A stretch of DNA of 28,882 nucleotides from a virus, in IMG/VR virus record IMGVR_UViG_3300042295_000537, positions 1-28,882 of that record. One strand, given 5' to 3'. The notes under the pieces are model-generated. The model searched no databases. It saw only the letters and a program-made list of their open reading frames with translations, and was not told the DNA's origin. Of this stretch, positions 264-27,748 are shown one piece after another (position 1 is the stretch's first letter; every line of letters starts with the position of its first letter). Position numbers and translations under genes: made by a program.

Positions 264-959
264 ATGAAAATAACTATCACGTACCCTGAATCATGGGCTG
301 AAGTAAAATACAGCCAGTATCTTAAATACTACAAACAATCTAAATCATATGAGGGTACAGATGAATTTGAAAAAATCAATTTAGAGACAGCAGCGTTAAA
401 CTTTTGCAAGATACCTGCTGAACACTTATATGCTTTACCTAAGAAAACATTTGATAAAGTTACTGAATGTTTGTTTAAATTATTCAGTGAACAGAAATCA
501 CTTCCATTGGTCAAATCATTTACCGTTGGTGATACAACATATGGTTTCATACCTGAATTAGATGATATGGCTTATGGTGAGTACCTAGATTTAGTTAGCT
601 ACACTAGTAGTAACGTTTGGGACAACATTCCTATTATACTATCAATTCTATACAGACCAGTAAAATATAGTTTAGGCAAAAAATACACAATAGAACCGTA
701 TACAGGTACTAATGATGAGAGAATAGAATTATTCAAACACGTACTAACAATGGACGTTGTATTTGGTGCCGTGGCTTTTTTTTTGAGTTTACAAGCAGAC
801 TTACAGACAGGTATCCTGACTTATATAATGGATATGATGAAGGAGGGGAAGACAGATCCAAGGATTTCTCAAGCACTGCAGGATTTGGAAAAAAATGGAG
901 TGGATATAGCACAGTTGCAGTCCTTTCTAACAATGACGTCACAAAATTTGACTCAATAA
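264..959 (+). CDS. Tail assembly chaperone, unshifted form (231 aa)
   Basis: The 231-residue protein starts two bases after the terminase stop. It has no SD sequence and a TTTAATA leader. No enzymatic motif is visible. The body is mixed alpha/beta with a hydrophobic helical segment (VVFGAVAFFLSLQ, about residues 165-177) and an acidic, polar tail. The call rests mainly on the 3' end. A 7-A run at 889-895 lies where a -1 slip would join this frame to a second open frame that reads like a coherent protein domain. That is the hallmark of siphovirus tail chaperones (lambda gpG/gpGT type), which coat the tape measure during tail assembly. The family assignment is inferred from this architecture, not from a recognised domain. 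The position next to terminase and far from the tape measure (19161) is unusual. Confidence 0.6.
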   Translation: MKITITYPESWAEVKYSQYLKYYKQSKSYEGTDEFEKINLETAALNFCKIPAEHLYALPKKTFDKVTECLFKLFSEQKSLPLVKSFTVGDTTYGFIPELDDMAYGEYLDLVSYTSSNVWDNIPIILSILYRPVKYSLGKKYTIEPYTGTNDERIELFKHVLTMDVVFGAVAFFLSLQADLQTGILTYIMDMMKEGKTDPRISQALQDLEKNGVDIAQLQSFLTMTSQNLTQ

Positions 960-1057
960 CAAATTTACCAATGCACCAATGTTTGACATATTTGGTGTAC
1001 CTGAAAGACTATAACAACCACCAGTCTCAATTGCTCAAACAACCATCTGTTTTATAA
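264..1057 (+). CDS. Tail assembly chaperone, predicted -1 frameshift fusion (264 aa)
   Basis: This is the predicted product of a -1 ribosomal frameshift. Frame 0 codons run from 264 to AAT 894-896. The ribosome then re-reads base 896 and continues TGG AGT GGA to TAA at 1055-1057. The result is 211 frame-0 residues plus a 53-residue extension starting WSGYSTVAVLSNND, compared with 20 residues (GVDIAQLQSFLTMTSQNLTQ) in the unshifted protein. The extension has a W-x-G-Y start, an amphipathic middle and a helical end (CLTYLVYLKDYNN). This is what the T domain of G/GT-like chaperones looks like. In lambda the T part binds the tape measure and the tube protein. The shift itself is inferred from sequence. 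An independent start at ATG 971 would give only 28 residues and is less convincing. Confidence 0.6.
890..896 (+). promoter_or_regulatory. Slippery heptamer A AAA AAT for -1 frameshifting
   Basis: In frame 0 the bases read A-AAA-AAT, an X-XXY-YYZ heptamer with X, Y = A and Z = T. It lies inside a run of seven A (889-895). Slipping back one base leaves Lys-tRNA fully paired and places TGG (896-898) in the A site. I see no strong downstream stem-loop. An AAGGAGGGG stretch at 840-848 resembles a Shine-Dalgarno but lies about 40 nt upstream, farther than known SD stimulators. Confidence 0.55.
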
Positions 1058-1141: not shown

Positions 1142-1399
1142 ATGAAAAGAAACTACTCAAGTAATCCAACCACACGCTACAAATTAGATAGCAGACCACA
1201 ACCAAAACACAGTTATGGTAATGCAGTACCACGTGCTGGAATGGAAGGATGCCTTTGCGCAGACAAAAACACCTACAGCAAGAAGTGTTGTAAAGGATAT
1301 CTAATAAACCAGGGTATTGGTAGCACTATTTCACCATATCCATCTGGTGGTGGATTTAGCAAAGGATTTAGTAACGGCTTTCAAGTTGTACAACCATAA
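1142..1399 (+). CDS. Small Cys-rich conserved phage protein (85 aa)
   Basis: The 85-residue protein has a basic N-terminus, then a compact motif G-C-L-C-x4-T-Y-x3-C-C-x-G (about residues 37-52) followed by QGIG. It ends in a Gly/Ser/Phe-rich tail. The GCLC...TYS..CC.G..QGIG signature recurs in small proteins next to structural genes of Bacteroidota and aquatic phages, as I remember it. Its function is not known to me. Four closely spaced Cys suggest a disulfide knot or metal site. The gene sits between the tail chaperone and the giant fibre, so a minor virion or tail component is plausible. The start is the first ATG. The 84 bases before it (1058-1141) hold only short interrupted frames. Confidence 0.65.
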   Translation: MKRNYSSNPTTRYKLDSRPQPKHSYGNAVPRAGMEGCLCADKNTYSKKCCKGYLINQGIGSTISPYPSGGGFSKGFSNGFQVVQP

Positions 1400-1418
1400 A
1401 AATTTAAACATTTAGATA

Positions 1419-4400
1419 ATGTCTTCACGTAATCAAGTACTGTCAAACAATACAAACAGCTTCCCTAATAATAATTCAGGTCAAATTACGCCTGCTGATT
1501 TAAGAGATTTCAATGCTGATTTTATTGACTCAGTAAGGTTCTTAGATGAACCAATTCCATTAGCAACATCAGCTTCATATGCTGAAAATGCTACATCAGC
1601 GTCATTTGCCTCAAACGCAGCTAATGCTACTTCAGCATCATTTGCTTTAACTGCATCATATGCTTTAAATGGTGGTACTGGAACTATTAATACAGGATCA
1701 CTATTAACTGATGCTAGCGCAGTAAACGCTACTACCACATTCACAAGAGGAAACGGTACAACATTTGATGTTACTGTTGATAATGTAGTAAACGCTGATA
1801 CAGCATCTTATACTCCAAACGCATTAGTAAATGCTATAGGTGGTGTAGGAGATATTACATTTATAAAAGGTGATGGTACTTCATTTGCAGTAGTAGTTCC
1901 AGTATCTGGTTCAACAGCAACAGCATCATTAGCTCTAGACTCAGAAAGATTAGGTGGTGTGTTACCAAGTGGATATGTTACTACTTCAGCAACGTCTTCA
2001 TTTGCTACAAAAACAGAATTAAATGCATATACTGCATCTACAAATACATTTACTGGCTCAATACAAACGCAAGTAAATGCTCTAGAAGCAGCTACATCAT
2101 CTTATGTGACAAATGCTCAAACATCAAGTATGAGCGTTTTAAGCTCTTCTTTTGCTACTACTGCATCATATGCTTTAAATGCTGGTACTACTGTTGACAC
2201 AGGATCATTTGTAACAACAAGTTCATTTAATGCATTTAGCTCATCTGTAGATTCACAATTAACAGCATTAGAAAACTTTAGTTCATCATTAGATGCAACT
2301 TATGCTACTGAAGCTGAATTAAATGCTGCTACAGCATCATTAAGTGCTAGTTTAGCTACTAGTATTGCTACTAAATTAGATACAACTGTATTTAATGCTT
2401 ATACTTCATCTAATGATAGTAAAGTAAATGCATTAACAGCAGCAACATCATCATATGTTCAAAATAGTCAGACATCAAGTATGTCTGTTGCTAGTGCTTC
2501 ATTTGCTACATCAGCATCATTTGCAACAAATGCAGCAATAGCAGGATTTGCTCAAACAGCATCTAATACTCCAAACGCTATTGTAACTGCTTCAGTTAAC
2601 GTTAGTACTATTACTTTTACAAAAGGTAATGGAACAACTTTTGATGTAACTGTATCTCAATCAGGATCTGTTGCAACAGCATCATTAGCTTTAAATTCAG
2701 AATTATTAGATGGATTAGATAGTACAGCGTTTGTTTTAAACTCACAAACGTCAAGCATGAGCGTTGCTAGTGCGTCTGTAGCTACATCAGCTAGTTTTGC
2801 AACAAATGCTTTAACTGCAGATAGTGCTACATCAGCGTCATTTGCTACTAATGCTGCACAAGCAACAAGTGCTAGCTTTGCTACTTCTGCTTCATTTGCA
2901 ACAACAGCATCATACGCAGAAAATATTCCAGATGTAAACGTATTAGTAGAACAAATTTATACTGGTGAAGCAATAACCAAAGGTGATCCATTATATATTT
3001 CAGGATCACAAGGTGCAAAACCAATTGTATACAAAGCAGATGCTGGAAATGCAGCTAAAATGCCTGTAACATATATTGCTTCAGAAACAATAGGTGCAGG
3101 TAGTGATTCAACAGGCATTGTACTTGGTTTAATTGAAGGAATAGATTTAACTGGCTATACAGCAGGAACAGAAGTTTATGTTGCTGTAGGGGGTGGTTGG
3201 ACAGATACAAGACCAACAGGTTCAGCAATTGTACAAATATTAGGTATAGTAACTAAAGGAGGTTCTGGTGGTAAGGGTTTAGTATTAAATCCTGGACCAG
3301 TAGAATTACCTAATCTACAAGCAGGATATGCTTGGATTGGTGATGCAAACGGTGTTCCTCAAGCAGTATCAACTTCATCATTATTAGTTTCAACAGCTTC
3401 ATTTGCACAAACAATTGCAAGTGGATTAAACATAACAGCTTCAAATTTACAAGTAAACAACAACGTTAGTATAGGTGGTGATTTAGTTGTAAACGGAACA
3501 GCATCATTTGGTTACGTACAAACAGTAACTGGTAGTGCTGTAATCATAAATGAAGAATACATCATATTAAATACCCAAACACCAGCTGCACGTTATGCTG
3601 GATTGTTAGTATATGATAGTGGTTCAAACGCAACTGCATCAATAGTTTGGGATTCAGAAACTAATCACTTTGTTTATGAAAATGCAAGTGGTAGTTCATA
3701 TATGGGAGGTGGTTTTATGGCAGGTCCTAGAAACACAGGATCATTAGCTGATATCACTTACCCTACATTAAACAGAATTTTAAGAGGACAAGGTGGAGAT
3801 CATTTATATGATTCAAATATCATAGATGACGGTACAGTAAAAATTCAAGTAAATACAGAAGTAACTGGTACTTTAGGCGTTACAGGTAATATTACAGGTA
3901 ACTTAGTAGGAACAGCTTCATATTCTACTTACGCAGAAAATGCAGGTGCTGCTTCAACAGCAACATCAGCATCATATGCTTTAAGCGCTTCATTTGCTAC
4001 AACAGCATCATTTGCTGAAACAGCAGTTAGTGCTTCATACGCTCCAGATACTACATTCCCTTATACAGGTAATGCTCAAATTTTAGGTAACTTAGGCATT
4101 ACAGGCAGCATTTTTGGACAACCAACATATGCAGTTACTGAATTTCCATTTACAGTTAATGAAGGTAGTGATGGCACGTCAGCATCTTCAAATTTAATAT
4201 TTGATAGAAATACAACTGCAATTACTACAGGTTCAGTTACTGTTTCTGGTTCAAATAACTTTATTTCTTTAAATTCAGGTACACCAAATGCAACCGTAAC
4301 TGGTGGTGGTGCAGGTATAATTAGAGCTGCAAATAGTATTGTATTAGGTGGTGGTGTAAGAGTTACTGGATCTAATGGTTCAGGTTATAATAGAACAGCA

Positions 4401-7400
4401 CCTACATTAACAACTTCTATCAACTCAGGCCTTGTTACTGTTACAGATAATAGACCAACAACAACAACTGCTCCGTTAGCATTTACAAATGTTAATAATA
4501 ATGGTGCTATCACAGCTACTCTTACAACAGGTAGTGTAACATTGAACAATAATATAATGTTTGGTAATAGTGGTACTATTATTAATGTAACAGGTAGTGC
4601 TGGAGCCGCTAGAACTATTAATAGCAGTATATTAGGTGGATTTAGTGGAAACAGAATTGAATTTGATGGTTCTGGAGGTAATATAATTGGAAGTATGCTT
4701 TTGGGTAATCTCTTAACAGCATCATTTACAGATACAAATACTGTTTTAAATAGTGTGTCTGTATTAGGTTATCAATTAGCTGTTTCTGCATCAGGCCCAG
4801 CAGGAAGTACAACATTATATGGTTCAACTTATGTTGGTAGATGGAATGCTACAGATGATACTTCAAAACCAGGAACTACAGTGTTTGCTATTGGTACAGG
4901 TACATCAAACGCAGCTAGAAGAACATCATTCCATGTTAGTGCATCAGGTTTAACAACAGTTAGTGATTTAAGTGCAACTGGTAGCTTACAAGGTACAGCA
5001 TCATTTTCTAATAACGCTACTTCAGCTTCATTTGCCCAAACAGCATCATATGCTTTAAACGCAGGTGTAACAATTGATACTGGATCATTTGCAACTACTG
5101 GTTCAAATACATTTACTGGTGATCAAACAATAGATTCACCAAATAAATTATTTGTAAACTCAATTGAAAATAATTCATTAGCAGATCTAGTAATATCTGG
5201 AGGTCCATTTGCTGGTATTAATTTAAATGGTAATACTACCCTTAACGGTAATTTAACTCTTAATACAGGTTATATTATTACCGCAGATTCAATCACTGGT
5301 AGTTTCACTGGTAGCTTAGAAGGAACTGCATCATTTGCTGTTAGTGCAAGTTGGGCACCTCAACAAACATTTGACACTGGCTCATTTGCAACAACAGGTT
5401 CTAATACATTTACTGGATTTAATACTTTTGAAGACGGTATTGCAGTAAATCAAATTCAGGCTCAAAATGCTGGTATAGATGGACCAGATATTACAATCAC
5501 TCCTTATTCTATTGGTTATTTAGTAGTAGGAGGTAGTGGTATTAAAGTTGATGATGGTATCATAGCAACTGGCAGTATAAGTGCATTAGGTGGTTTTACT
5601 GGTAGCTTACAAGGTACAGCGTCATTTGCAGTAACAGCTTCATATGCTTTAAATGCAGGTACAGCTGTTGATACAGGTTCATTAATGAAGACAGGTTCTG
5701 CATCAGGTAATACTTTAACATTCACTAAAGGTGATGGATCAACATTTAATTTAACTGTAGCTACAGGTTCTGCAGGAGCAGCATTTCCATTTACTGGCTC
5801 AGCTACTATCAGTGGTAGCTTAAGTATAGTTGGTACTTTAACTAATGGAGAAAATAATAATCTTTCTAGTGGGGAATTTTCACACGCTGAAGGTTGGGGT
5901 GCCGTTACTGCATCAGGATATGGATCTCATGCTGAAGGTGCACGTACTAAAGCTACAGGAAATGCAGCTCACTCAGAAGGAGTTGATACAATTGCTTCAA
6001 ATAATGGTTCTCATGCTGAAGGTGCAACTACAATTGCATCTGGTCTTTGGGCGCATGCTGAAGGAGATCAAACAGTAGCAAGTGGACAATATGCACACTC
6101 TGAAGGACAGCGTACATTAGCTAGTGGAAATGGTGCTCATGCTGAAGGTTCTCAAACAACAGCCTCTGGTGTTGTATCTCATGCTGAAGGTATAGGTACT
6201 ATAGCTAGTGCTACTGGTCAACACGTACAAGGTAAATGGAATTTAGTTTCATCTACAGCAAGTTCATTTATTATAGGTAACGGTACTGATACAAACAACA
6301 GAAGTAATTTAGTTTTTGCTGCAGGCAATGAATTCCAAATTACTGGTTCAGCTCAAATTACAGGTAGCTTAGGTGTGTCAGGTAGTATTTTTACCAAACC
6401 AACATATGTTACTACAGAACGTTCATTCTCTATTCTTGAAGCAGCTGATGATTTTACAAGAAATGGTAACGTAATACTTACAAGAAGTCAACTTGCTACA
6501 TCAACAGGTTCAGTTGCTATTACTGGTTCAAATAACTTTATTGCTTTAAGTAATGGTTTAGGTAATATTTTTGCTAATGGTGGTGGTGCAAGTATAATTA
6601 GAGGTATAAACAGTATAGTATTAGGTAATAGTGTACCAACTATCACTGGTTCAAACGGTAGTGGATATAATAGAACAGGTCCTCTATTTGCAAACTCTAT
6701 TAATATGGGTAGTCTTAGTATTACTGATAATAGACCAACAGCACTTCCAACTTTCTTTACTAGTACCAATAGTATGATTAATGGTACTGTATCTGCTACT
6801 ATTTCTACTGGTAGTCTTTCAATTAATAATAGTAATATAAATGCTTCTCTTGCTTTAACTATAACAGGTAGTAATGGCACAGCAAAACTTATACAAAGTA
6901 CTACAATAGGAGGAGGTGCAAGAATAGATTTTGCATCATCTGGATCAATGTCTATACAAAATGGTCTAATAGCAGGTAGTGCTATGACAGCATCACTTGT
7001 AGATGGTGCTTCAGCTATGTTAGGTGTTGCTATGCTAGGTAATGGATTATCTGCATCTGGAAGTCTTGGTACAACAGCAACTGGAGGTTCAGCTTACGTT
7101 GGTAGATGGAATACTTTAGATAGTACTTCACAAGTAGCAAATACAGCATTTGCCGTTGGTACAGGTACTGCTGATGGATCTAGAAGAACATCATTACATG
7201 TTAGTGCATCTGGTTTAACAACAGTTAGAGATGGATTAAATGTAAGTGGTAGTTTTGATTTAGTTGGTAGTGCAAGCATAAGTCAAACACTACAATTAAG
7301 TGGACAAGATCCATTACCAACAGGAGCAACAGGTATGTTAGCTGTATCACAATCATTACTATGGTTTTATGATGCAACTCAATGGAGACAAGTAAGTTTA

Positions 7401-7406
7401 GTATAA
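1419..7406 (+). CDS. Giant tail fibre / host-recognition protein (1995 aa)
   Basis: This is by far the largest gene. Residues 1-50 (SGQITPADLRDFNADFIDSV) resemble the virion-attachment end of phage fibres. Residues about 50-500 are Ala/Ser/Thr repeats of the type ATSASFATNA. About 510-655 form a globular segment starting EQIYTGEAITKGDPLYISG. About 680-850 form a second folded segment (GDLVVNGTASFGYVQ onward). About 889-1190 and 1648-1950 are two diverged copies of one domain, each starting G-L-x-G-S-I-F-x-x-P-T-Y and ending HVSASGLTTV. About 1487-1605 contain YadA-head-like repeats (HAEG every 14-15 residues). The C-terminus (PLPTGATGMLAVSQSLLWFY) is a typical fibre tip ending. The Ala-rich part probably forms a fibrous shaft, and the duplicated domains and tip probably contact the host surface. 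No chaperone or peptidase motif was seen. Confidence 0.85.
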   Translation: MSSRNQVLSNNTNSFPNNNSGQITPADLRDFNADFIDSVRFLDEPIPLATSASYAENATSASFASNAANATSASFALTASYALNGGTGTINTGSLLTDASAVNATTTFTRGNGTTFDVTVDNVVNADTASYTPNALVNAIGGVGDITFIKGDGTSFAVVVPVSGSTATASLALDSERLGGVLPSGYVTTSATSSFATKTELNAYTASTNTFTGSIQTQVNALEAATSSYVTNAQTSSMSVLSSSFATTASYALNAGTTVDTGSFVTTSSFNAFSSSVDSQLTALENFSSSLDATYATEAELNAATASLSASLATSIATKLDTTVFNAYTSSNDSKVNALTAATSSYVQNSQTSSMSVASASFATSASFATNAAIAGFAQTASNTPNAIVTASVNVSTITFTKGNGTTFDVTVSQSGSVATASLALNSELLDGLDSTAFVLNSQTSSMSVASASVATSASFATNALTADSATSASFATNAAQATSASFATSASFATTASYAENIPDVNVLVEQIYTGEAITKGDPLYISGSQGAKPIVYKADAGNAAKMPVTYIASETIGAGSDSTGIVLGLIEGIDLTGYTAGTEVYVAVGGGWTDTRPTGSAIVQILGIVTKGGSGGKGLVLNPGPVELPNLQAGYAWIGDANGVPQAVSTSSLLVSTASFAQTIASGLNITASNLQVNNNVSIGGDLVVNGTASFGYVQTVTGSAVIINEEYIILNTQTPAARYAGLLVYDSGSNATASIVWDSETNHFVYENASGSSYMGGGFMAGPRNTGSLADITYPTLNRILRGQGGDHLYDSNIIDDGTVKIQVNTEVTGTLGVTGNITGNLVGTASYSTYAENAGAASTATSASYALSASFATTASFAETAVSASYAPDTTFPYTGNAQILGNLGITGSIFGQPTYAVTEFPFTVNEGSDGTSASSNLIFDRNTTAITTGSVTVSGSNNFISLNSGTPNATVTGGGAGIIRAANSIVLGGGVRVTGSNGSGYNRTAPTLTTSINSGLVTVTDNRPTTTTAPLAFTNVNNNGAITATLTTGSVTLNNNIMFGNSGTIINVTGSAGAARTINSSILGGFSGNRIEFDGSGGNIIGSMLLGNLLTASFTDTNTVLNSVSVLGYQLAVSASGPAGSTTLYGSTYVGRWNATDDTSKPGTTVFAIGTGTSNAARRTSFHVSASGLTTVSDLSATGSLQGTASFSNNATSASFAQTASYALNAGVTIDTGSFATTGSNTFTGDQTIDSPNKLFVNSIENNSLADLVISGGPFAGINLNGNTTLNGNLTLNTGYIITADSITGSFTGSLEGTASFAVSASWAPQQTFDTGSFATTGSNTFTGFNTFEDGIAVNQIQAQNAGIDGPDITITPYSIGYLVVGGSGIKVDDGIIATGSISALGGFTGSLQGTASFAVTASYALNAGTAVDTGSLMKTGSASGNTLTFTKGDGSTFNLTVATGSAGAAFPFTGSATISGSLSIVGTLTNGENNNLSSGEFSHAEGWGAVTASGYGSHAEGARTKATGNAAHSEGVDTIASNNGSHAEGATTIASGLWAHAEGDQTVASGQYAHSEGQRTLASGNGAHAEGSQTTASGVVSHAEGIGTIASATGQHVQGKWNLVSSTASSFIIGNGTDTNNRSNLVFAAGNEFQITGSAQITGSLGVSGSIFTKPTYVTTERSFSILEAADDFTRNGNVILTRSQLATSTGSVAITGSNNFIALSNGLGNIFANGGGASIIRGINSIVLGNSVPTITGSNGSGYNRTGPLFANSINMGSLSITDNRPTALPTFFTSTNSMINGTVSATISTGSLSINNSNINASLALTITGSNGTAKLIQSTTIGGGARIDFASSGSMSIQNGLIAGSAMTASLVDGASAMLGVAMLGNGLSASGSLGTTATGGSAYVGRWNTLDSTSQVANTAFAVGTGTADGSRRTSLHVSASGLTTVRDGLNVSGSFDLVGSASISQTLQLSGQDPLPTGATGMLAVSQSLLWFYDATQWRQVSLV
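1560..2925 (+). repeat. Degenerate Ala/Ser-rich coding repeats in fibre shaft
   Basis: Short protein repeats of the type (T)SASFATNA, TASYAENA and SSMSVASASFA recur many times, giving an AT-rich DNA repeat family built on GCATCATTTGC-like words. Longer units are also repeated, such as LNAYTASTN...VNALEAATSSYV and a related NAYTSSNDSKVNALTAATSSYV unit. Codons vary between copies, so the repeat is kept at protein level. Scattered copies continue to about 5660 (TGSLQGTASFAV units). Confidence 0.8.
4086..4990 (+). repeat. Fibre domain duplication, copy A (partner at 6363-7260)
   Basis: About 300 codons that align with 6363-7260. Shared landmarks in order are GSIF-x2-PTY, GS-V-x-(V/I)-(S/T)-GSNNFI, GGGA-x-IIR-x-NSIVLG, ITGSNGSGYNRT or VTGSNGSGYNRT, TDNRPT, TGS-(V/L), YVGRWN, RRTS and HVSASGLTTV. 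The DNA is diverged, so the duplication is old. Between the copies lie fibre linker segments and the HAEG repeats. Confidence 0.8.
5878..6240 (+). repeat. HAEG (YadA/Hia head-like) beta-helical repeats
   Basis: About eight units of 14-15 residues with consensus (S/A)H(A/S)EG-x2-T-x-ASG, for example SHAEGARTKATGNAA and AHSEGQRTLASGNGA. The last unit is decayed (HVQGKWN). These match the left-handed beta-helix head repeats of trimeric autotransporter adhesins, which also occur in phage fibres. They imply that the fibre is a trimer. Confidence 0.85.
6363..7260 (+). repeat. Fibre domain duplication, copy B (partner at 4086-4990)
   Basis: Second copy of the fibre domain described at 4086-4990, placed directly before the C-terminal tip. 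It keeps GSNNFIALS, GGGASIIRGINSIVLG, TGSNGSGYNRTG, TDNRPT, YVGRWN and HVSASGLTTV. The segments between these landmarks differ most, which fits variable surface loops on a shared scaffold. Confidence 0.8.
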
Positions 7407-7423
7407 AAAATAAATAAATAAAA

Positions 7424-7633
7424 ATGCCAATACCAAAACGTAGATCAAGTGAAGCAGAACAGGACTTTATAGGCCGCTGTGCTGAAAAATTAATTGGTGA
7501 AGAAGGGTATGAACGTGATCAAGCAGTAGCTATTTGCTATCAGCAATTATCTGTTGATTTAACTGCAGATAAAGATTGGCGTAAATCATTTTTGGCAAGT
7601 AAAAACCCATCATCATGGATCAAAAAGAGCTAA
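7424..7633 (+). CDS. Small conserved phage protein (69 aa, PxPK/CY type)
   Basis: The 69-residue protein starts MPIPKRRSSEAEQDFIGRCA and has a second signature, QAVAICYQQ. Similar short modules (PxPK...FI.RC...Q..AICY) are common near head genes or fused to prohead proteases in tailed phages. I do not know their biochemical role. Here the module is a free protein directly upstream of the scaffold-like gene, and its last 19 bases overlap that gene (ATG at 7615). The protease itself lies 13 kb downstream, so a module usually linked to it appears to have been separated. A role in capsid maturation is inferred from context only. Confidence 0.65.
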   Translation: MPIPKRRSSEAEQDFIGRCAEKLIGEEGYERDQAVAICYQQLSVDLTADKDWRKSFLASKNPSSWIKKS

Positions 7634-8493
7634 AAAACAGTATTTTTGCTAGAATGGCTGGACAAAAATCAAATGAAAGCAATACATCAAGTTATAACAA
7701 CATAAATCAATTACAAATGGATTCAAAAGCAATTCTAAAAAACATCATGACTATGCTAGGCGTAGAAAAGAATGTTGAGTTAGGTGGCAATGCAAACGCT
7801 GGTGGTCCGTTTTATGGTAAATTAGAAAACGGTTCTCCTGTTATGTCAGATTTTTTTGACGTAGGACACACGTTACTAGTTATCAAAGAAGACGGATCTA
7901 AAGTAGCTGCACCAGACGCTGACCACATTATTTACTTGCCTGTTGGTTTAGCTGGTGGAGACAAAAGATATTTTATCACAACCAAAGATGGCATCATTAC
8001 ATCAATGCACTTAGAAGACAATTACGGCGCTAAGAAAATTAATGTAAATTTTGCTGTTGAAGAAAAATCCAATGAAATGGAAAGTACAAAATTAGCAGAA
8101 GACAGCTTGGAAATCAAAGATGAGAAAAAAGCTGTTGAAAAAGAAGAAAAGATGGCAGATGAAGCATCACGTCTTGATTCTTTAGAAGAACAATTAAATC
8201 AACTACGTGTTGATATTGCTCAACTTTTTGAAGCAGTAAAAGGCAAGAAAGAAGAAATGGGTATGGAAGTAAATGATGAAGAAGCAGCTGTTAAGCGTCT
8301 TCAAGAAAAAGATCAATTACAAGGTGAACCAAATTTTGGTGGACCAGGTAAAATGGGATTAAGCGCTCAGAAGAAATTCAATGGTGCTCCTGTAGAAGAA
8401 AAATCAGATTTAGGTGGTATAGTTAAAGCTAAACAAGGTGGCACTATGGCTTCAGTGTTAGCTAAAATGAATAACTCTAGATTTGGTAAATAA
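7615..8493 (+). CDS. Putative capsid scaffold or head assembly protein (292 aa)
   Basis: The gene lies directly upstream of the major capsid gene, the usual scaffold position. Residues about 1-50 are polar. Residues about 55-140 form a compact domain with GGPFYGKLENGSPV and DHIIYLPVGLAGGDKRYFIT. Residues about 145-225 are strongly charged and helical (MADEASRLDSLEEQLNQLRV), a likely coiled coil. The C-terminus is Gly/Lys-rich and ends SVLAKMNNSRFGK. The coiled coil, high charge and location fit a scaffolding protein. The folded N-terminal domain is unusual for a simple scaffold and could instead be a head decoration protein. No protease motif is present. The start overlaps the previous gene. 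Confidence 0.5.
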   Translation: MDQKELKNSIFARMAGQKSNESNTSSYNNINQLQMDSKAILKNIMTMLGVEKNVELGGNANAGGPFYGKLENGSPVMSDFFDVGHTLLVIKEDGSKVAAPDADHIIYLPVGLAGGDKRYFITTKDGIITSMHLEDNYGAKKINVNFAVEEKSNEMESTKLAEDSLEIKDEKKAVEKEEKMADEASRLDSLEEQLNQLRVDIAQLFEAVKGKKEEMGMEVNDEEAAVKRLQEKDQLQGEPNFGGPGKMGLSAQKKFNGAPVEEKSDLGGIVKAKQGGTMASVLAKMNNSRFGK

Positions 8494-8527
8494 CAATTAA
8501 TTAACAAAAAAGTAAACATTAGAAAAA

Positions 8528-9439
8528 ATGGCAACTTCAGTATCAATTAGCACCACGTATGCCGGTCAGTTTTCTGGCAAATACATTGCTGCTGCATTAT
8601 TATCTGCTCCTACACTTGATAAGGAGTACATAACTATCAAACCAAACATCAAGTACAAAGAGGTAGTAAAAGTATTATCTCAATCAAACATCATTGTAGA
8701 TGCAACTTGTGATTTTGCTGCAACAGGTTCTGTAGCATTAACTGAGCGTATCTTACAACCAGATGAGTTCCAAGTTAACACTCAGTTATGTAAGGAAGAT
8801 TTCCGTTCTGATTGGGAAGCTGTAGAAATGGGTGTATCAGTTTATGATAACTTACCTGCTTCTTTCACTGACTTCTTGATTGCTAACACAGCTGGTCAAG
8901 TAGCTCAACAAATTGAATTAAATATCTGGTCTGGTTCAGCTTCAGTAAACGGTCAGTTTGCTGGTTTAATCAACCAATTAAGCGGATCTGGCGCTAACTT
9001 TGTTACCGCTTCTGCTCAAGTAACTTCATCTAACGTTGTTGCTGAATTAACTAAAGTAGTAAACGCTATCCCTAACACAGTTTACGGTAAGGAAGATCTT
9101 TACATCTACGTTCCAACCAACGTTGTAAAGGCTTACCAAGTAGCTTTAGGTACTGCTAACTACCAATTCAACGCATTCACTGGATTTGCTCCGTTAAACT
9201 TCCAAGGTATTAACTTAGCATGGTGCCCAGGTATGCCTTCAAACATCATGATTGCTGCACAAAAGAGTAACTTATTCTTTGGTACTGCGTTGTTATCTGA
9301 TAAGAATGAAGTTAGAGTGTTAGATATGGCTGATCTTGATGGTTCTCAAAACGTACGTGTTATTATGCGTTACACAGCTGGTGTTCAGTATGGTATTGCT
9401 TCTGACATTGTGGTTTACGGTCCAGCAGGCTTAATCTAG
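8528..9439 (+). CDS. Major capsid protein, HK97-fold candidate (303 aa)
   Basis: The 303-residue protein begins ATSVSISTTYAGQFSGKYIA, which resembles the N-terminus of major capsid proteins in Bacteroidota phages. A helical middle region (SFTDFLIANTAGQVAQQIEL, about residues 117-136) and a beta-rich C-terminal half ending VRVIMRYTAGVQYGIASDIV fit the HK97 fold of about 300 residues. Codon use differs from the neighbours: more C-ending codons (AAC, TAC, ATC, TTC) than in the fibre or tail genes, as expected for the most highly expressed gene. It follows the scaffold-like gene by 34 bp and is followed by a hairpin. No long N-terminal delta domain is present, which fits a separate scaffold. The assignment rests on resemblance, position and codon bias. 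Confidence 0.8.
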   Translation: MATSVSISTTYAGQFSGKYIAAALLSAPTLDKEYITIKPNIKYKEVVKVLSQSNIIVDATCDFAATGSVALTERILQPDEFQVNTQLCKEDFRSDWEAVEMGVSVYDNLPASFTDFLIANTAGQVAQQIELNIWSGSASVNGQFAGLINQLSGSGANFVTASAQVTSSNVVAELTKVVNAIPNTVYGKEDLYIYVPTNVVKAYQVALGTANYQFNAFTGFAPLNFQGINLAWCPGMPSNIMIAAQKSNLFFGTALLSDKNEVRVLDMADLDGSQNVRVIMRYTAGVQYGIASDIVVYGPAGLI

Positions 9440-9446
9440 TAGATTA
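9432..9446. other. 15-bp inverted repeat around the capsid stop codon
   Basis: TAATCTA and TAGATTA flank a central G, placing the capsid TAG stop inside the palindrome. It could add to the hairpin just downstream in stabilising or processing the capsid mRNA 3' end. This may be coincidental. Confidence 0.35.
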
Positions 9447-9453
9447 AAATATA

Positions 9454-9483
9454 GTGGCGGGAGCTAAAAACTCCCCCACTTTA
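9454..9483 (+). terminator. Hairpin after capsid gene, partial terminator
   Basis: GTGGCGGGAG (9454-9463) pairs with CTCCCCCAC (9471-9479) through nine base pairs and one bulged C, with a CTAAAAA loop and only TTT after it. The weak T tract suggests partial termination or mRNA 3' end protection between the capsid gene and the tube-like gene. Confidence 0.55.
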
Positions 9484-9520
9484 AAAATAACAATTAACTC
9501 ATTCAAATAAATTTAACAAC

Positions 9521-10066
9521 ATGGCTTGTGATATTTCATTAGGTAGAAATGAACCTTGTAAAGACAGTATAGCTGGTCTGCAAGCTGTGTATTTCATGAA
9601 CTTCAATACTGGTAGCTTTGTAACAAATGCTAACGGTGAAGTTACAGCATTCCCTTCAGGATCAACTGTTTACAAGTATGAATTGAAAGGAACAAACGGA
9701 TACACAGAAACTGTTAACACATCACGTGATAACGGTACTACATTCTTCAGCCAAGAATTAAGTTTACAATTAAAGAAATTAGAAGCAACTGCTACTAAAG
9801 AACTTAAATTGTTAGCTTATGGCCGTCCTAAGATTGTAGTATGGACTAGAAATGGTGATGCATTGTTAGTAGGTAAACAAGAAGGTGCTGATATGACTGC
9901 TGGTACAATTACCACAGGTACAGCATACGGTGACTTGTATGGCTATACAATGGTATTTACTGGTCAAGAAAAAGAACCTGCTAATTTTATTAGTGGTTCA
10001 ACAGCTACAAACCCATTTGCAGGTGTGAGCAACGCTCCAACTGTAGTTTACGGTACTAATAGCTAA
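9521..10066 (+). CDS. Putative major tail tube protein (181 aa)
   Basis: The 181-residue, beta-rich protein starts MACDISLGRNEPCKDSIAGL and contains YKYELKGTNGYTETVNTSRD and LKLLAYGRPKIVVW. I associate this pattern with a structural protein family of Bacteroidota siphoviruses that is probably the tail tube. Its size suits a tube subunit. It follows the capsid gene and precedes a strong terminator, so the two abundant virion proteins share one transcription unit. The codon use is also fairly rich in C-ending codons. An alternative is a head decoration protein, but the tube is preferred because no better tube candidate is present elsewhere. Confidence 0.55.
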   Translation: MACDISLGRNEPCKDSIAGLQAVYFMNFNTGSFVTNANGEVTAFPSGSTVYKYELKGTNGYTETVNTSRDNGTTFFSQELSLQLKKLEATATKELKLLAYGRPKIVVWTRNGDALLVGKQEGADMTAGTITTGTAYGDLYGYTMVFTGQEKEPANFISGSTATNPFAGVSNAPTVVYGTNS

Positions 10067-10067
10067 T

Positions 10068-10091
10068 ACAGGGGTAATAATAATACCCTGT
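10068..10091 (+). other. Hairpin just after tube-like gene
   Basis: ACAGGGGTA (10068-10076) pairs with TACCCTGT (10084-10091) with one bulged G and a 7-nt A/T loop. There is no T tract, so it is unlikely to terminate alone. It may protect the mRNA 3' end together with the terminator at 10135. Confidence 0.5.
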
Positions 10092-10134
10092 CTCTATATA
10101 GAAACCCCGCTATAGTCTCAGTATTATAGCTCTA

Positions 10135-10167
10135 GAACCCAGGCTTTTCAGCTTGGGTTTCTTTTTT
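10135..10167 (+). terminator. Strong intrinsic terminator after capsid/tube block
   Basis: AACCCAGGC (10136-10144) pairs with GCTTGGGTT (10151-10159) with one G-U pair and a TTTTCA loop, followed by TCTTTTTT. This is a classic rho-independent terminator. It ends the abundant head/tube transcript and implies a separate promoter for the portal block downstream. Confidence 0.85.
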
Positions 10168-10201
10168 ATCAAATAAGGACAAAATTAGTGGTTATAGCAA
10201 C

Positions 10202-10558
10202 ATGAATATAGTAATTCCACAAACAGGTACAGTTAAGTTTGATGTTAGGACTAGACCAACGTCTTCATACAATACATTTGTAGTGAAGATGAATTGGACA
10301 AATGAAGAATCAAATACAACAGGTAGTACAATTGTTACTGCATCTTATGATTCAAATGATTTTTTAAATGTAACAGCATCACTATATGCATCAGCAAGTA
10401 ATTTCTATAAATTTACATTAGTACAAATGAGTGGTAGTGTTGAATGTAATGAATTATACCGCGGTGAATTATTCCCAACAACAGGATCAGCTTACATATT
10501 AGACAGTGAACCATTTAGTTCATATACAACAGCAAGCAATACGTTTATAATATTTTAA
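10202..10558 (+). CDS. Hypothetical beta-rich virion protein (118 aa)
   Basis: The 118-residue protein is rich in Ser, Thr and Tyr with alternating hydrophobic residues, so probably all-beta. It starts MNIVIPQTGTVKFDVRTRPT, has no Cys-rich, catalytic or membrane motif, and ends in a hydrophobic SNTFIIF. The C-terminus resembles that of small structural proteins in related phages. It is the first gene after the terminator at 10135 and stops 2 bp before the portal ATG, so it is co-expressed with portal. I do not recognise the family. A small head, neck or tail accessory protein is the best guess from context. Confidence 0.6.
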   Translation: MNIVIPQTGTVKFDVRTRPTSSYNTFVVKMNWTNEESNTTGSTIVTASYDSNDFLNVTASLYASASNFYKFTLVQMSGSVECNELYRGELFPTTGSAYILDSEPFSSYTTASNTFIIF

Positions 10559-10560
10559 AC

Positions 10561-12105
10561 ATGAGTCAAGAAAAAAATAAAAACAACATTAGAGTTGTAA
10601 ACATGAGTAATGAGGGTGGTTACATACTACCTAAAATAACAGAATCATCACGTAGCAGAAAAGCACACGTTGAGTTTGGTATTGAATCTACAGATGATTT
10701 CTTTACTATGTTAATCAGAACTTATGAAACATCACCTACAAACCAAGCAGCAGTTGATAGTTCAACTGACTTAATTTACGGTAAAGGTGTTAAAGCAAAA
10801 GACAGATTAGAATTAGAAGAGTATTTGTATACACTTACTACTGATGATGAAATCCGTAAAATATGCTTTGACTATAAGTTATTTGGTAACGCAGCTATTC
10901 AAGCAGTATTCAATGAGAGTAGAGATAAAATCATTGGATTCTATCATATGCCAGTAGACACATTACGTGCTGAAAAGGTAGATGAACAAGGTAATATTGC
11001 TGGATACTATTATTCTCCTGATTGGAACAATAAGCGTATCATACCAAAATACATTCCGGCATTTGGTCAAAACCAATTTGAAAATGATGTACAAATAATC
11101 TATTTCAAGCGTTATTCACCTGGTAAATTCTATTATGGTGTACCTGACTGGTATTCTTGTTTACAATATTGTACTGTAGAGGAAGAAATTTCTAACTTAC
11201 ACGTAAACAACATCAAAAATAACTTTATGCCTTCAAGCATTATTAACTTCAATGGTGGTGTTCCTCCAGTTGAAGAGCAATATATGGTTGAACAAAGCAT
11301 TATGAATAAGTTTTCTGGCACAACAAACGCTGGTAAGTTTATCTTATCATTCAATGACAACCCAGAATACAAAACAACTGTTGAAATGTTGCGTCCAGAA
11401 AACCTACATCAACAGTATGATTTCATTGCAGAAGAATCATCACGCAAAATCATGTTAGCACACCGTATTACATCTCAGATGTTATTAGGTATTAAAACAG
11501 CAACTGGTTTTGGATCAAACGCTGATGAATTAAAAACATCATATGAGATATTCTATGCAATGGTAATTAATCCATTCCAACAAGAAATCATGAAACAAAT
11601 TCAAGGTATAGTTGAATTTAATGGTATTAATGGTGAAGATTTATACTTTGCTCCATTGATTCCATTTGGTTTCTTAGCTGAATTAATGGATGATGCTGGT
11701 GCAGCTAATGCTCAGGAAATTATTGAAAATCCAAATGACGTACCTGATCTAGAAGCAGAACAAAAACAACCAACAGATCAAGATATAGCTCCAAATCCAG
11801 ATGAAACAATTGGTGATGTAGTAGGACCAGAAAATGTTGGAGTACAAGGTTTAAGTGAAGATGGTGGTGTAAATGAAAATCTAAAAAATTTATCAGGCAG
11901 ACAATACCAACAATTACTACGCATTGTAAATCAATTCCAGAAAGGTAAAATCAATGAAGCTCAAGCAGAATTAATGTTAATGAGTGCATTTGGTTTTTCA
12001 GGTGCTCAAGCTAGAACAATGTTAGGAATTGATACCAACAACAAAGTAGAAATGTCAAAATACAATGATGTTGATTGGAAAAATTGGAATATAGAAGAAA
12101 ATTAA
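10561..12105 (+). CDS. Portal protein (514 aa)
   Basis: At 514 residues it has the normal length for an HK97/PBSX-type portal. Recognisable segments are MLIRTYETSPTNQAAVDSST near the N-terminus, then KICFDYKLFGNAAIQAVFN, YGVPDWYSCLQYCTVEEEIS, and the helical hinge region HRITSQMLLGIKTATGFGSN. The last 130 residues are acidic and Gln-rich and probably disordered, ending in a helix-rich tail (QYQQLLRIVNQFQKGKINEA) that may be the crown or a binding site for internal proteins. The portal dodecamer forms the DNA channel and docks terminase. The gene lies downstream of the capsid gene, the reverse of the usual portal-protease-capsid order. Confidence 0.88.
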   Translation: MSQEKNKNNIRVVNMSNEGGYILPKITESSRSRKAHVEFGIESTDDFFTMLIRTYETSPTNQAAVDSSTDLIYGKGVKAKDRLELEEYLYTLTTDDEIRKICFDYKLFGNAAIQAVFNESRDKIIGFYHMPVDTLRAEKVDEQGNIAGYYYSPDWNNKRIIPKYIPAFGQNQFENDVQIIYFKRYSPGKFYYGVPDWYSCLQYCTVEEEISNLHVNNIKNNFMPSSIINFNGGVPPVEEQYMVEQSIMNKFSGTTNAGKFILSFNDNPEYKTTVEMLRPENLHQQYDFIAEESSRKIMLAHRITSQMLLGIKTATGFGSNADELKTSYEIFYAMVINPFQQEIMKQIQGIVEFNGINGEDLYFAPLIPFGFLAELMDDAGAANAQEIIENPNDVPDLEAEQKQPTDQDIAPNPDETIGDVVGPENVGVQGLSEDGGVNENLKNLSGRQYQQLLRIVNQFQKGKINEAQAELMLMSAFGFSGAQARTMLGIDTNNKVEMSKYNDVDWKNWNIEEN

Positions 12106-12118
12106 GAAACATAAGATA

Positions 12119-12634
12119 ATGAGTAAAAATATACTTTTTTGTAGCAGAAATGATATTGTTAAACGCACACCACTTGGTGGCAATATTGATCCTGAAAAAA
12201 TCATTCCGTTTGTTAAAACGGCTCAAGACAAATACTTACTATTAATTTTAGGTACTAAATTGTTTAATAAACTACAGGATGATATTGCTGCAGGTACTAT
12301 TGCAAACCAGTATTTAACATTAATGAATGAATATATCATTGATACATTAGTACACTATGCAATGGTTGAAGCATTACCATTTTTAGCTTACACAATAGCA
12401 AATGGTTCTATTTCTAGAAACATACCATCAGAACAAGGTACAGGCACAATTAAAAGTGAAGTTGATTATTTGTTACAAAAAGAACTAGCTACAGCACAAT
12501 TCTACGCTGAACGTTTAACAACACATTTAATTGCTAGAAATAACCTATATCCAGATTACGTGTTAAGTACTGGATTTAGTGATAACGTTTATCCAGATAA
12601 AGGACAACAATATAGAAATGGTTGGGTAATCTAA
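12119..12634 (+). CDS. Head-tail connector-like protein, DUF6712-like (171 aa)
   Basis: The 171-residue, mostly helical protein follows the portal gene by 13 bp. It resembles the DUF6712 family of Bacteroidota phages: an N-terminal (GGNIDPEKIIPFVKTAQDKY) segment, then LLILGTKLFNKLQDD, and a helical core VHYAMVEALPFLAYTIANGS. The position after portal and the helical fold suit a gp6-type head completion protein that extends the portal ring. The family name is from memory. Its stop overlaps the start of the next gene (TAATG), indicating translational coupling. Confidence 0.65.
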   Translation: MSKNILFCSRNDIVKRTPLGGNIDPEKIIPFVKTAQDKYLLLILGTKLFNKLQDDIAAGTIANQYLTLMNEYIIDTLVHYAMVEALPFLAYTIANGSISRNIPSEQGTGTIKSEVDYLLQKELATAQFYAERLTTHLIARNNLYPDYVLSTGFSDNVYPDKGQQYRNGWVI

Positions 12635-12801
12635 TGGAACAGAAAAAAACATACTACGGCTATAAGCCTAAAGAAGACAATTTGAGCAAACTACAACGTT
12701 ATCTGCTGTCTAAAAACGCAGATAAAAGCGCAAACAACGCGTTAAATGAGAAAGTAGCTATGTTGTCATCAAATAAAGTACTTAAAAATAAACGCTTCTA
12801 A
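12634..12801 (+). CDS. Small basic hypothetical protein (55 aa)
   Basis: ATG overlaps the previous stop (TAATG) and the TAA is followed directly by the ATG of the next gene, so all three are tightly coupled. The 55 residues (MEQKKTYYGYKPKEDNLSKL onward) are rich in Lys, Asn, Leu and Ser and probably form one helix. There are no motifs I recognise. Perfect packing between neighbours with no gap is the main evidence that it is real. Confidence 0.7.
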   Translation: MEQKKTYYGYKPKEDNLSKLQRYLLSKNADKSANNALNEKVAMLSSNKVLKNKRF

Positions 12802-13323
12802 ATGCAGACATTTTATTCATTTACTCAATTCTTTGCTAACGTTTGTAATGCACATCCAAACATTACTACGTTTGACATGAGTGACATTAGAACACTTGAT
12901 ACTGAAAAACAAACATTGTTTCCTTATGCTAATCTAATTGTTAACAATGTTAACATTGATTCTGGTATAATGACTTATAATGTTACATTCATGGTAATGG
13001 ATAGAGTTGTTGAAGTAGAAGATGTATCTGTAGGTAAGTTTAATACAATAGAAAAAGACTATAGAGGATACAGCAACGTATCAGACGTTTGGAACACATC
13101 ATTACTCACAATTAATGACGTTGTATCTTATATCTACAGAAATCCAAGTGCATATCAGTATAATGTAATTGGTAGTTCATTAGCAACACCATTTGAAGAA
13201 AGATTTCAGAATTTACTTGCTGGATGGGCTATTGATATGAATATTGCCGTTGGTAATCCAAATGATATGTGTGTTATTAATTTAAGTGATATATTAGCCG
13301 CAGGTAATGACCCAACATGTTAG
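12802..13323 (+). CDS. Possible tail terminator or neck protein (173 aa)
   Basis: The 173-residue protein has an N-terminal helix (TFYSFTQFFANVCNAHPNIT), then a beta stretch with LFPYANLIVNNVNI and GIMTYNVTFMVMDRV. The pattern of a short helix followed by strands ending in a V-M-D-R-V-like edge is seen in tail terminator folds (lambda gpU type), and the position between connector and gp10-like protein fits a neck or terminator role. This is inference from layout. I do not recognise the family with certainty. Its 3' end overlaps the next start by 7 bases. Confidence 0.55.
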   Translation: MQTFYSFTQFFANVCNAHPNITTFDMSDIRTLDTEKQTLFPYANLIVNNVNIDSGIMTYNVTFMVMDRVVEVEDVSVGKFNTIEKDYRGYSNVSDVWNTSLLTINDVVSYIYRNPSAYQYNVIGSSLATPFEERFQNLLAGWAIDMNIAVGNPNDMCVINLSDILAAGNDPTC

Positions 13324-13796
13324 ATCAAGAAATAATAGAAGCAGAAAAGAGATGGGCTCAATTAGTAGTTACCAATGCTAAATCTATATTAATACGCAAC
13401 GGAAAAGTTGCTAGTGGTAGATTAAAAGATTCTATTGCTTACACAGTAAATGCTCAAGGTAAAATAAATTTTACATACGCACCAGAAGGTAAATGGGTTA
13501 CACTTGGTAGACGTAAAGGTTCTAGACAACCACCTACTGCTCCTATTGAAAGATGGATAAAACAAAAAGGTATTAGGGGTAGAGATCCTAAAACAGGTAG
13601 GTTTATTCCAGATAAATCATTAGCTTATCTTATTGCACGTGGAATTAAACGTGATGGTATTGCACCATTACCGTTTATGTCTATGGCTATTAAGGCAGCA
13701 AAGCAACAACTAGCAAAACAACTAAAACAAGCAGCTACTAAATCAACTGTTTCACGTTTAAGAAAGGCAGCTAAATCTGCTCTTAGCAAACCATAA
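13317..13796 (+). CDS. HK97 gp10-like head-tail joining protein (159 aa)
   Basis: The 159-residue protein matches the HK97-gp10-like pattern: helical N-terminus, VASGRLKDSIAYTVNAQGKI, then WVTLGRRKGSRQPPTAPIER, a W-I-x2-K-G-I segment, and LAYLIARGIKRDGIAPLPFM followed by a basic C-terminal helix. The GRK-G-x2-PP and IK-x-GI-x-P motifs are typical. Such proteins act in the neck or tail completion of siphoviruses. The C-terminus is very Lys/Ala-rich and could bind DNA. The gene overlaps the previous one by 7 bases. Confidence 0.7.
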   Translation: MLDQEIIEAEKRWAQLVVTNAKSILIRNGKVASGRLKDSIAYTVNAQGKINFTYAPEGKWVTLGRRKGSRQPPTAPIERWIKQKGIRGRDPKTGRFIPDKSLAYLIARGIKRDGIAPLPFMSMAIKAAKQQLAKQLKQAATKSTVSRLRKAAKSALSKP

Positions 13797-15070: not shown

Positions 15071-18000
15071 ATGGGATTACTAACTACACAAGGATATAGA
15101 GGTAAACTGGTTGATAAGTTAACTGGTACTATTTTAGATCAATTTGCAGATGAAGATATTAAGATATCTAACAATATTCTTGATTTATTTGATTTAGGTG
15201 AGATACCAGGTACATACACTCAAACATTAACATTACCAGGTACTAAACTTAACAATGCTTTTTTTGAACAGTATTTTGATATTAGTGTTTATGAACCAGA
15301 TATATTCAACACTAATCAGAAAGTAGAAGCATATCTTGATTTTGATTCATTTTATTTAGTTAATGGTTATTTACAACTAAACAAGGTTAATGTACTTCAA
15401 AACAAATTTGTTGACTCATATGAAGTGACTCTGTTTGGGATTATTTCTAATTTCAGTATTGATACAAGAGCGTCTTTCTTAACAGATATCACCTCTTTAG
15501 GCGTTTATAACCATACGTCTTCATACGCTAATATTAGCAGTAGTTGGGATAGACAATTATTTAATGGTGACATTGTTTATCCAATGGTTGAATATGGTAA
15601 TAATGTTGGAACTCTTCCAACAATTTACTATTCAGATGATGTATATGCAGGTATTGATGGACAAGAAGGTGCTTTAACAGTACAAGACTATAAACCAGCA
15701 ATACGTTTAAAGAAAGTATGGGACGCTATATTTCAGGAATTTGGCTACACATATACAGGATCATTTTGGAATGAACCATTCTTAAATGATGTTTATTTAC
15801 TTTGTGATAATGATTTAAGAGCACCTGTATATCAACCTAGTATTGAAAATTATGGACAAGGTAAGGTTACTGTTGCTTCAGGATCTGCTCCAATTAATTT
15901 AACTAATGGTGTAACTGCTAGTTTTGCATTTAATGCTAAAGACTATGATTATGACAATAAGTTTACTGTTGGCACTACAACAACATACACAACAGATATT
16001 ACAACACAATTAAGTGTAAACATATTATTAGGATTTAAAGTAACAAACACAGGTGCTGGTAGTGGTATGCCTGCGTTTTATTTGTATTGGACAAACAGTA
16101 CTACAGGTGCAATTGTTGGTTCTCAAGTATTAGCACAGATTAATGTTTACATGTCTACAATACAGCAATCAAGATCTAGTACTGTAACTGAGACATTTAG
16201 ATTACCTACAACAGTAAGGTCACCAGAATTACCTCCAGGTACTTATGAATTAAAGATTGAGTATGTTAACCAGGGTTCATCTAATTTTAGTGTTCAATTA
16301 AATCCAGACAGTGCTAATGTATCTACATTTGAAATATTTAAAGTTAACCAAGCAGCTGATGGTAAAGTAATTGATATTCCATCTAACATGCCATTTGGTA
16401 ATAGTGGAATACGTGTTATTGATTGGATTAGATCAATACAAAAGAAATTTAATTTAATTATATATCCTGATAAACAAAATCCTAATCAATTTGTTGTTGA
16501 AACATTTAACAATTGGTATAAACAAGGTACAATTAAGGATTTTAATAGATTTATCAATCTACAAGACAAAATATCATTTACACCTGCAAACCAATTAGGA
16601 TACAGACAGATAAAATATAGTGATGCTGAGGATACTGATTATGTTACAACATTATTTAAACGTACTAATAATAGAGTGTATGGTGAATCTAACTTTTATG
16701 ACTCAGGATCTTATTATTCACAAGGAAAATTAGAAGTACTTTCAGATACAACAGCAGCAGGTCCATTAGTTAGAGTACCAGGTTCAGTATCATCAGGTTC
16801 TGCTTCTAATACTACATGTACTAGTTATCAGTTTTACTATAATAATATATACAGTAGTGCTACAGTTAATTTTGTTTTATGTAATGGTACTTCAGGATCA
16901 GTTTTATTAGATAAAGATAATAGAAATCATATTGCTTGTATTCAAACAGGTCAATATTCAGTTAGTGGTCTTGGTTCTGATAGGGTGTTTATTTATGATT
17001 TAGGAGATTGTACACCAGCACCAGTAACAGGATTTAATGAATTTCCTATTTGGATACCTTATCATGTATCTGATGCTAATTATAGACCAGCTAGAGTATT
17101 ACCTAGATTATTTTTCTATAATGGTAAAGTATCTGCTCCACCTTATTATATCTCAGGTTATAATATACCTTCAACATCATCTGTTCCTGCATTACAATAT
17201 GATGCTTATCCTTATTTTGACGTTTATTCTACTGGTTCACTAAATGGTACTGCATCTCAATTCCCACAATTAGATTCACTATCATTACTTTACAATAATG
17301 AGCAAGCAGTATGGGGTACAACACCTACAGGTTCATTAGTAAGTGATTATTGGGCTACTTATTTAAGTTTATTATACAATCCTAGAACGCGTTTAGTAGA
17401 TGCTAGTGCTGTAATTGGTTTAGCTGATTATTTTGATTTAGAATTAAATGACATTGCTGAATTTAGAGGTAATTACTACCATTTAAGAGCAATCAATGAT
17501 TATAATTTAACTACAGGAGAATGTAATGTTCAAATGTTAGGACCAATTATTCCAGACACTATAGCTGCTGTATTGAGTGGATCATGGGCTCCAGTAGTAA
17601 ATGAATGTGAATTTACATTTACAGTAACAACTGGATCTGTTCCAACTACAACAACTACTTCAACTACAACGTCTACAACAACAACCCCACCAACAACAAC
17701 TAGTACTACAACAAGTACTACAACGGCGCCTACAACTACAACTACAACTAGTACAACTACTAGTACTACAACAGAACCAACAACAACAACAACTACAAGT
17801 ACAACTACATCAACTACTACAACGCCGCCTACTACAACAACAAGTACAACAACAAGTACTACTACATTAGCTTATTACACGTATAGAATATATAAACCAA
17901 GTAGTGGTTACAGTAATGCTGCAGATGCTTGTAGTAACCAACCATCTGATGAATATGTTGATTATTATGCTGCAGAAAGTACTTTATCAACTGTTACTAA

Positions 18001-19012: not shown

Positions 19013-19168
19013 ATGCAACACATACAAAATATAGACATTGACTTTATTGTTACAGCACTGAAAATAGTGCCAAACAAATATAGTACACCTGCTATTAAAG
19101 TAGCAAAAGGTAAAAATAAATTACCAACCACACTTAAACAAGTGTTTAAAAAATTAAGAAATGGCTGA
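19013..19168 (+). CDS. Small basic hypothetical protein (51 aa)
   Basis: A 51-codon ORF (MQHIQNIDIDFIVTALKIVP onward) fills the gap before the tape measure. Its TGA (19166-19168) overlaps the tape measure ATG at 19161 by 8 bases. The C-terminal half is rich in Lys. I do not recognise it. The gap-filling position and the overlap with the next gene support that it is real. A role in coupling tape measure translation is possible. Confidence 0.6.
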   Translation: MQHIQNIDIDFIVTALKIVPNKYSTPAIKVAKGKNKLPTTLKQVFKKLRNG

Positions 19169-27421: not shown

Positions 27422-27748
27422 ATGCCATTTAAAGCAGGTGAAGTAACAGGTAGACCTAAAGGCGCTGAAGGTAAAGACACTAAACGCTTACGTGAAGCAA
27501 TTGCTGCTATCACTGAGGGTGGTATTGAGGACTTTCAACGTGCATTAGGTGAGGTGCTAGAGGAAAATCCATCTAAATACCTTGAACTATACCTTAGATT
27601 ACTAGAATACTCAATGCCTAAACTTAGATCAATAGATACAAACATAGAATTAGGTGACAACACAATACACAAAGTAACAATAAACGTTAATGCCAAGGGA
27701 ACTACAGATACAAGCAACAACAGTATTCCAGAAGAACTGGGAAGCTAA
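27422..27748 (+). CDS. terS: Small terminase subunit candidate (108 aa)
   Basis: The 108-residue protein starts MPFKAGEVTGRPKGAEGKDT, the G-R-P-K-G-A start common in small terminases of Bacteroidota phages, and continues with helices (RLREAIAAITEGGIEDFQRA; ENPSKYLELYLRLLEYSMPK). The C-terminus after LRSIDTN is Asp/Thr-rich. Small terminase recognises the packaging site and stimulates the large subunit. Position immediately before the large subunit supports the call. Its 3' end overlaps the large subunit gene by 59 bases, which is long for a coupling overlap. Confidence 0.75.
   Translation: MPFKAGEVTGRPKGAEGKDTKRLREAIAAITEGGIEDFQRALGEVLEENPSKYLELYLRLLEYSMPKLRSIDTNIELGDNTIHKVTINVNAKGTTDTSNNSIPEELGS

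Follow-up and report, generated by a model that had tools for sequence, protein, structure and literature searches.

The locus analysed here raises the question of how one phage gene comes to encode a short and a long product, and at which point its reading frame changes. The window, that is, the whole 28,882-nt stretch of viral DNA under analysis, contains a plus-strand open reading frame (ORF) at 264–959 that encodes 231 aa, and a −1 frame that overlaps its 3' part. An earlier note proposed a programmed −1 frameshift in a tail assembly chaperone gene, located at an A AAA AAT heptamer at 890–896 (plus strand, frame 0). The ORF, the heptamer and a −1 frame that runs to TAA at 1055–1057 are all present in the sequence. 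The −1 frame is open as claimed, although the 53 codons assigned to it are too few: a reading-frame check of the window shows that it is open from 719 to 1054. A second candidate lies within this interval. A run of nine T's (T9) at 776–784 (plus strand), the longest homopolymer in the window, reads GCT TTT TTT TTG in frame 0 and contains an in-frame T_TTT_TTT at 776–782. With a slip at T9, the short product comprises an N-terminal domain to about residue 172 and a 57-codon 0-frame tail past the run, and the −1 extension (785–1057, plus strand) comprises 90 codons and TAA; joined to the frame-0 part it gives a long product of 264 aa. Because the window holds two candidate slip sites, only homologues can separate them.

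T9 is present in four IMG/VR contigs (46–69% identity) and in the Nonlabens phages P12024S and P12024L, and the −1 frames of all these sequences are alike from T9 onward. A first profile scan yielded 80 loci and a second, with another starting sequence, yielded 80 more; pooled, these represent 140 distinct loci, with T9 in 120 and T10 in 20. Codon phases 0, 1 and 2 are found among them, and throughout, frame 0 encodes the N-domain and frame −1 the C-domain. A third scan, built around the member that diverges most, added 77 distinct loci, some overlapping earlier contigs (T9 in 65, T10 in 10, T12 in one, and T9 with a broken −1 frame in one, L416). The approximately 217 distinct homologues obtained by protein similarity thus have T9 in every clear case, or else T10 (~14%) or T12 (one), and in clear homologues the run always links frame 0 to frame −1, whichever of the three codon phases is used. 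Besides L416, the exceptions are L062, in which the frame is broken yet T9 is kept, and L151, which is cut by the contig end. The T12 run in L412 (2467–2478) has three T's more than T9, so the frame relation is kept. In two short contigs, T10 (L320 959–968 and L363 2227–2236) places both domains in one fused ORF; these are either one-T insertions or sequencing errors, and relatives of L363 at ~93% identity carry T9. IMG/VR was also scanned with a pattern of the run plus its context, which gives counts that are conditioned on the pattern and were left out of the statistics: more than 120 contigs matched with T9 (120 of 120 examined are family members), 67 with T10 and 13 with T8, the T8 contigs all lying outside the family. 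Most homologue sequences are metagenome assemblies; the first scan found no copies in bacterial genomes and the second found only two MAG contigs. The phage family is mostly aquatic and probably infects Bacteroidota, given the Nonlabens phages, a Winogradskyella MAG contig and cultured distant relatives.

These homologues place the slip site at T9. Conservation of the −1 frame at protein level, which the earlier note proposed as a check, is found, but it starts at the T9 run itself (FFFEFTSRLTDRYPDLY...), so that the homologous −1 frame begins ~110 nt upstream of A AAA AAT; the extension domain is conserved in 56 aligned homologues. At the alignment position of 890–896, an X_XXY_YYZ heptamer occurs in only 5 of 60 representatives (homologues below 80% identity) and in 11 of the 140 distinct homologues. 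Most homologues therefore lack a slippery run at this place, which the note itself had named as grounds for refutation, and the site is refuted; the heptamer exists because AAA AAA TGG encodes the residues KKW in the −1 frame. Ribosomal −1 frameshifting at 890–896 is consequently a very improbable reading, the least probable considered: A AAA AAT is in frame, the −1 frame is open downstream and, of the four nearest sequences that were examined first, three have the heptamer (the window, L002 and L003), but beyond its rarity among the representatives, conservation of the −1 frame already starts at 776, before the heptamer is reached, and distant single-frame relatives align through 776–890 in the −1 reading. 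Extra slippage at A AAA AAT may occur in the window phage itself, beside the conserved T9 site. Likewise, the peptide junction LEKN-WSGY is replaced by AVAFF-FEFTSRL.

What stands is a programmed change from frame 0 to frame −1 and a longer product that gene callers miss, as P12024S and P12024L illustrate. Genes 38 and 39 of these cultured phages correspond to phrog_32199 and phrog_38404, and T9 joins gene 38 to a −1 frame that holds gene 39. They are annotated as two hypothetical genes and, unlike in the window, the 0-frame tail is shorter (24 codons). In the P12024S annotation, gene 39 (L006 4474–4641) stands on its own and starts at an internal ATG. The N-domain of the window's frame-0 product matches phrog_32199 (unknown function; E 2.9e-10), and the −1 extension matches phrog_38404 in L004 and P12024S. 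Very likely, P12024S gene 39 covers the 3' portion of gene 38's −1 extension, and the two phrogs are halves of one product. No evident case of the extension as a separate gene was found, and distant relatives hold both parts in one ORF, so the frame change stands. An internal ATG start for the extension was considered and rejected: a count of ATG codons in the −1 frame downstream of the run, up to the final 20 codons, gave none in 34 of the 60 representatives, and in 24 of the other 26 the nearest lies at least 54 codons past the run.

The single-ORF relatives came to light through a fold search with a model of the frame-0 product (pLDDT 86.8), which matched an uncharacterised protein of Flavobacterium phage 6H. 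They include Duneviridae (FPSV-F7, laban, Ingeline), Polaribacter phage Leef and Microcystis phages (Mea-Yong924-1, phrog_25418). Fused T9-family proteins align with these single-frame proteins over 214 columns, continuously across the junction (hhalign probability 97.8, E 1.1e-12). Both groups thus have the same two-part protein, and in some relatives its gene lies a few genes upstream of the annotated tape measure gene; unlike the T9 family, they use one reading frame, have T6 or less at the junction and make only the long form. The two-form design is therefore not universal. T6 encodes the junction FF in laban, Ingeline and the Microcystis phage, where it is followed by G, A or E; the protein sequence by itself thus does not require a run of nine T's. 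6H gp10 itself (L465 10352–10927) stops at residue 191, with the break at the FF position, and the near-identical sister phages FPSV-F7, 23T and 2A have one ORF of 293 aa; gp10 probably reflects a local sequence error or a truncated gene.

Both products are under selection. As effect sizes without P values, since related pairs are not independent, third positions of the fused frame are substituted at 0.528 per site before the run, at 0.272 per site in the overlap that codes in frames 0 and −1 (785–956, plus strand, in the window) and at 0.398 per site farther downstream (2,695 pairs), and the 0-frame tail extends for a median of 54 codons past the run versus 5 in synonymous shuffles of the −1 codons (about ten times longer). 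Within the overlap, −1 frame third positions coincide with frame-0 second positions. The third frame closes after the run at a median of one codon. Halved substitution in the overlap and the long tail indicate that both frames are constrained, and hence that selection acts on the short product as well as on the long one. This analysis shows where the slip site lies, that the frame changes there and that both products are selected, and the gene at 264–1057 almost certainly makes two products that are joined at T9. An alternative is that errors in assembly or sequencing created the frame break, or that the T run varies in DNA (phase variation) with the fused form in other genomes. Homopolymers are prone to error and mutation, and T10 is fused in L320 and L363. 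This explanation is highly improbable because the same break recurs in ~217 independent sequences, cultured phages P12024S and P12024L among them, and the 0-frame tail is constrained in its own right; sequencing error as the cause was rejected on the breadth of homologues and on selection on both frames.

How the frame is changed is less certain. The mechanism that we propose is transcriptional. Ordinary transcripts with U9 would give the 231-aa frame-0 product. RNA polymerase, presumably that of the host, would slip on T9 at 776–784 and produce a fraction of transcripts with one extra U, on which the ribosome would carry on in the −1 frame to give the 264-aa product with its different C-terminal domain. 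Loss of one U would lead into the third frame, which is closed within a codon or so in most homologues. The features expected of transcriptional slippage are an uninterrupted A/T run of at least about nine, use of all codon phases and avoidance of such runs in other genes, and the family has all three. Across 302 other reading frames of these phages (218 kb), T9 or longer is observed 0 times against ~4 expected from synonymous shuffles, which puts T9 at the junction far beyond chance; A9 or longer is observed twice in other reading frames against 19 expected. Avoidance is commonly seen at run length nine, in a large share of bacterial genomes (PMC1088944).

The same two proteins would be made by ribosomal −1 frameshifting on T_TTT_TTT within T9 (776–782). 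This heptamer has the X_XXY_YYZ form of a −1 ribosomal site and is in frame in every codon phase open to T9, so a ribosome could slip there too, which counts against the transcriptional reading, as does the single fused frame of the T10 contigs L320 and L363. Known tail chaperone genes use −1 ribosomal slippage (PMC5009743; PMC3711429). A ribosomal slip would need only seven T's in phase 2 or eight in phase 1, but at least nine are always found. A T-to-C substitution at position 8 of the run would, in phase 1, alter neither protein and would leave a T_TTT_TTC heptamer in place; it occurs in 0 of 164 homology-derived sequences, compared with ~9.8% expected from the TTC/TTT (430/1344) and CTA/TTA (495/1457) odds of the same genes (P ~4e-4 for 75 sequences below 80% nucleotide identity). 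T_TTT_TTC is thus never used in the homologues, although uninterrupted T's could be kept since T_TTT_TTT is a better ribosomal site than T_TTT_TTC. Stimulators are also lacking at the run: Shine-Dalgarno-like motifs occur upstream in 0 of the 60 representatives, and there is no excess RNA structure (folding z-scores +0.35 and +0.18 for pseudoknot-free structures; some such sites need no stimulator). Ribosomal slippage at T9 is thus a possibility to be taken seriously, though not a probable one, and the ribosomal mechanism put forward originally is not the better supported.

Transcriptional slippage has precedents in bacteria. In Shigella mxiE, two ORFs are fused by an added U in a U run, and Thermus dnaX gives two products from one gene with A9 (PMC1088944); as here, runs of about nine A/T lie in coding sequence. 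Unlike these cases, the present one concerns a gene of a phage structural module, both C-terminal tails are under selection, and slippage is predicted from sequence. Together, the runs of at least nine T's, the absence of T_TTT_TTC, the lack of stimulators, the avoidance of T9 and A9 and the mxiE precedent make transcriptional slippage at T9 moderately probable, and we favour it over ribosomal −1 frameshifting. The combined statement that T9 is conserved and that transcription slips on it, with the role left aside, is a shade less secure but still leans towards probable.

Genome context bears on the role of the two products. The gene for the terminase large subunit (27690–28868, plus strand; Pfam Terminase_3, E 3.8e-23) lies directly upstream of 264 if the contig is closed, and its 3' end is repeated at 1–261. 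The window ends (1–275 and 28608–28882) overlap with 97.5% identity over 275 nt, which span the terminase 3' end and the start of the T9 gene, as expected for a circularly permuted genome assembled from slightly different variants. In relatives, the T9 gene follows terminase and precedes neck-like and tail genes. The two genes that directly follow it in most relatives are at 12802–13796 in the window (plus strand; synteny in 146 and 138 other loci), and the second weakly matches tail completion/neck proteins (phrog_222, E 0.0096). A probable tape measure gene, a weak assignment, is at 19161–21101 (plus strand; phrog_3336, E 0.0046; similar genes in relatives); it is 18 kb from the T9 gene in the window, the distance given in the earlier note, and ~5–7 kb, or four or five genes, away in relatives. 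The T9 gene and 12802 are separated by a block (1142–12801) that holds capsid and portal genes and encodes a fibre-like protein of 1995 aa; it is also present in some near kin and represents a rearrangement of the structural module. The 1023-aa tail-region protein at 15071–18142 has long Thr/Ser repeats (TTTTSTTTS) near its C-terminus.

Lambda G/GT-type chaperones bind the tape measure and major tail proteins, are absent from virions and are needed in a fixed ratio. Like the G/GT pair, the T9 gene is one structural-module gene with a short product and a −1-extended product, and its extension is unlikely to be made alone. It differs in having a T9 run instead of a varied heptamer, in a slip that precedes the 0-frame stop by a median of 54 codons and leaves a long overlap coding in both frames, in not lying directly upstream of the tape measure gene, in the lack of detectable homology and in the existence of single-frame relatives. 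No match to known chaperones was obtained in Pfam or in the PDB by sequence or fold; the frame-0 model resembles no solved structure in the PDB fold search, and a BFVD fold search with it returned annotated chaperones only at E ~1. The −1 domain modelled alone (pLDDT 63) is too poor for a fold search. Kinship with T4 gp26, suggested by a weak phrog_166 match, was dropped because T4 gp26 belongs to phrog_150. The products could instead be a head-tail connector or another structural protein with a short and a long form, whichever slippage mechanism operates. The gene's position between terminase and neck-like genes in relatives, the Cellulophaga phage Ingeline homologue that comes after portal, adaptor and gp4, and the single-form relatives all favour such a role. 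There is no fold or sequence match to connectors, however, the two-form design is best known from chaperones, and the region immediately before the tape measure gene showed no other candidate, either two-frame or chaperone. A connector or other structural role is accordingly a considerable possibility that falls somewhat short of likely. Of the roles considered, an assembly factor in the structural module, acting in the manner of the lambda G/GT pair, is the likeliest, and a chaperone-like function, argued by analogy, is about evenly balanced between true and false.

Ribosomal frameshifting is the textbook mechanism for genes of this kind, and we found no description of transcriptional slippage in a phage tail chaperone in the open-access literature searched. 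Where the two frames are annotated apart, as in P12024S and P12024L, the long product is missed, and it is probably absent from the annotation of hundreds of aquatic phage genomes. Occurrence of T9 in two cultured phages makes mechanism and function directly testable, and slipping homologues (T9) beside non-slipping ones (one ORF, T6) offer a clean comparison. If true, T9 would give phages a candidate site of transcriptional slippage that is very strongly conserved. A more far-reaching reading, which is less likely than not, is that in a widespread phage family, probably of Bacteroidota, RNA polymerase that slips on an invariant T9/T10 run, and not ribosomal frameshifting, sets the ratio of short to long tail assembly chaperone, with C-terminal tails that are dual-coded over ~160 nt.
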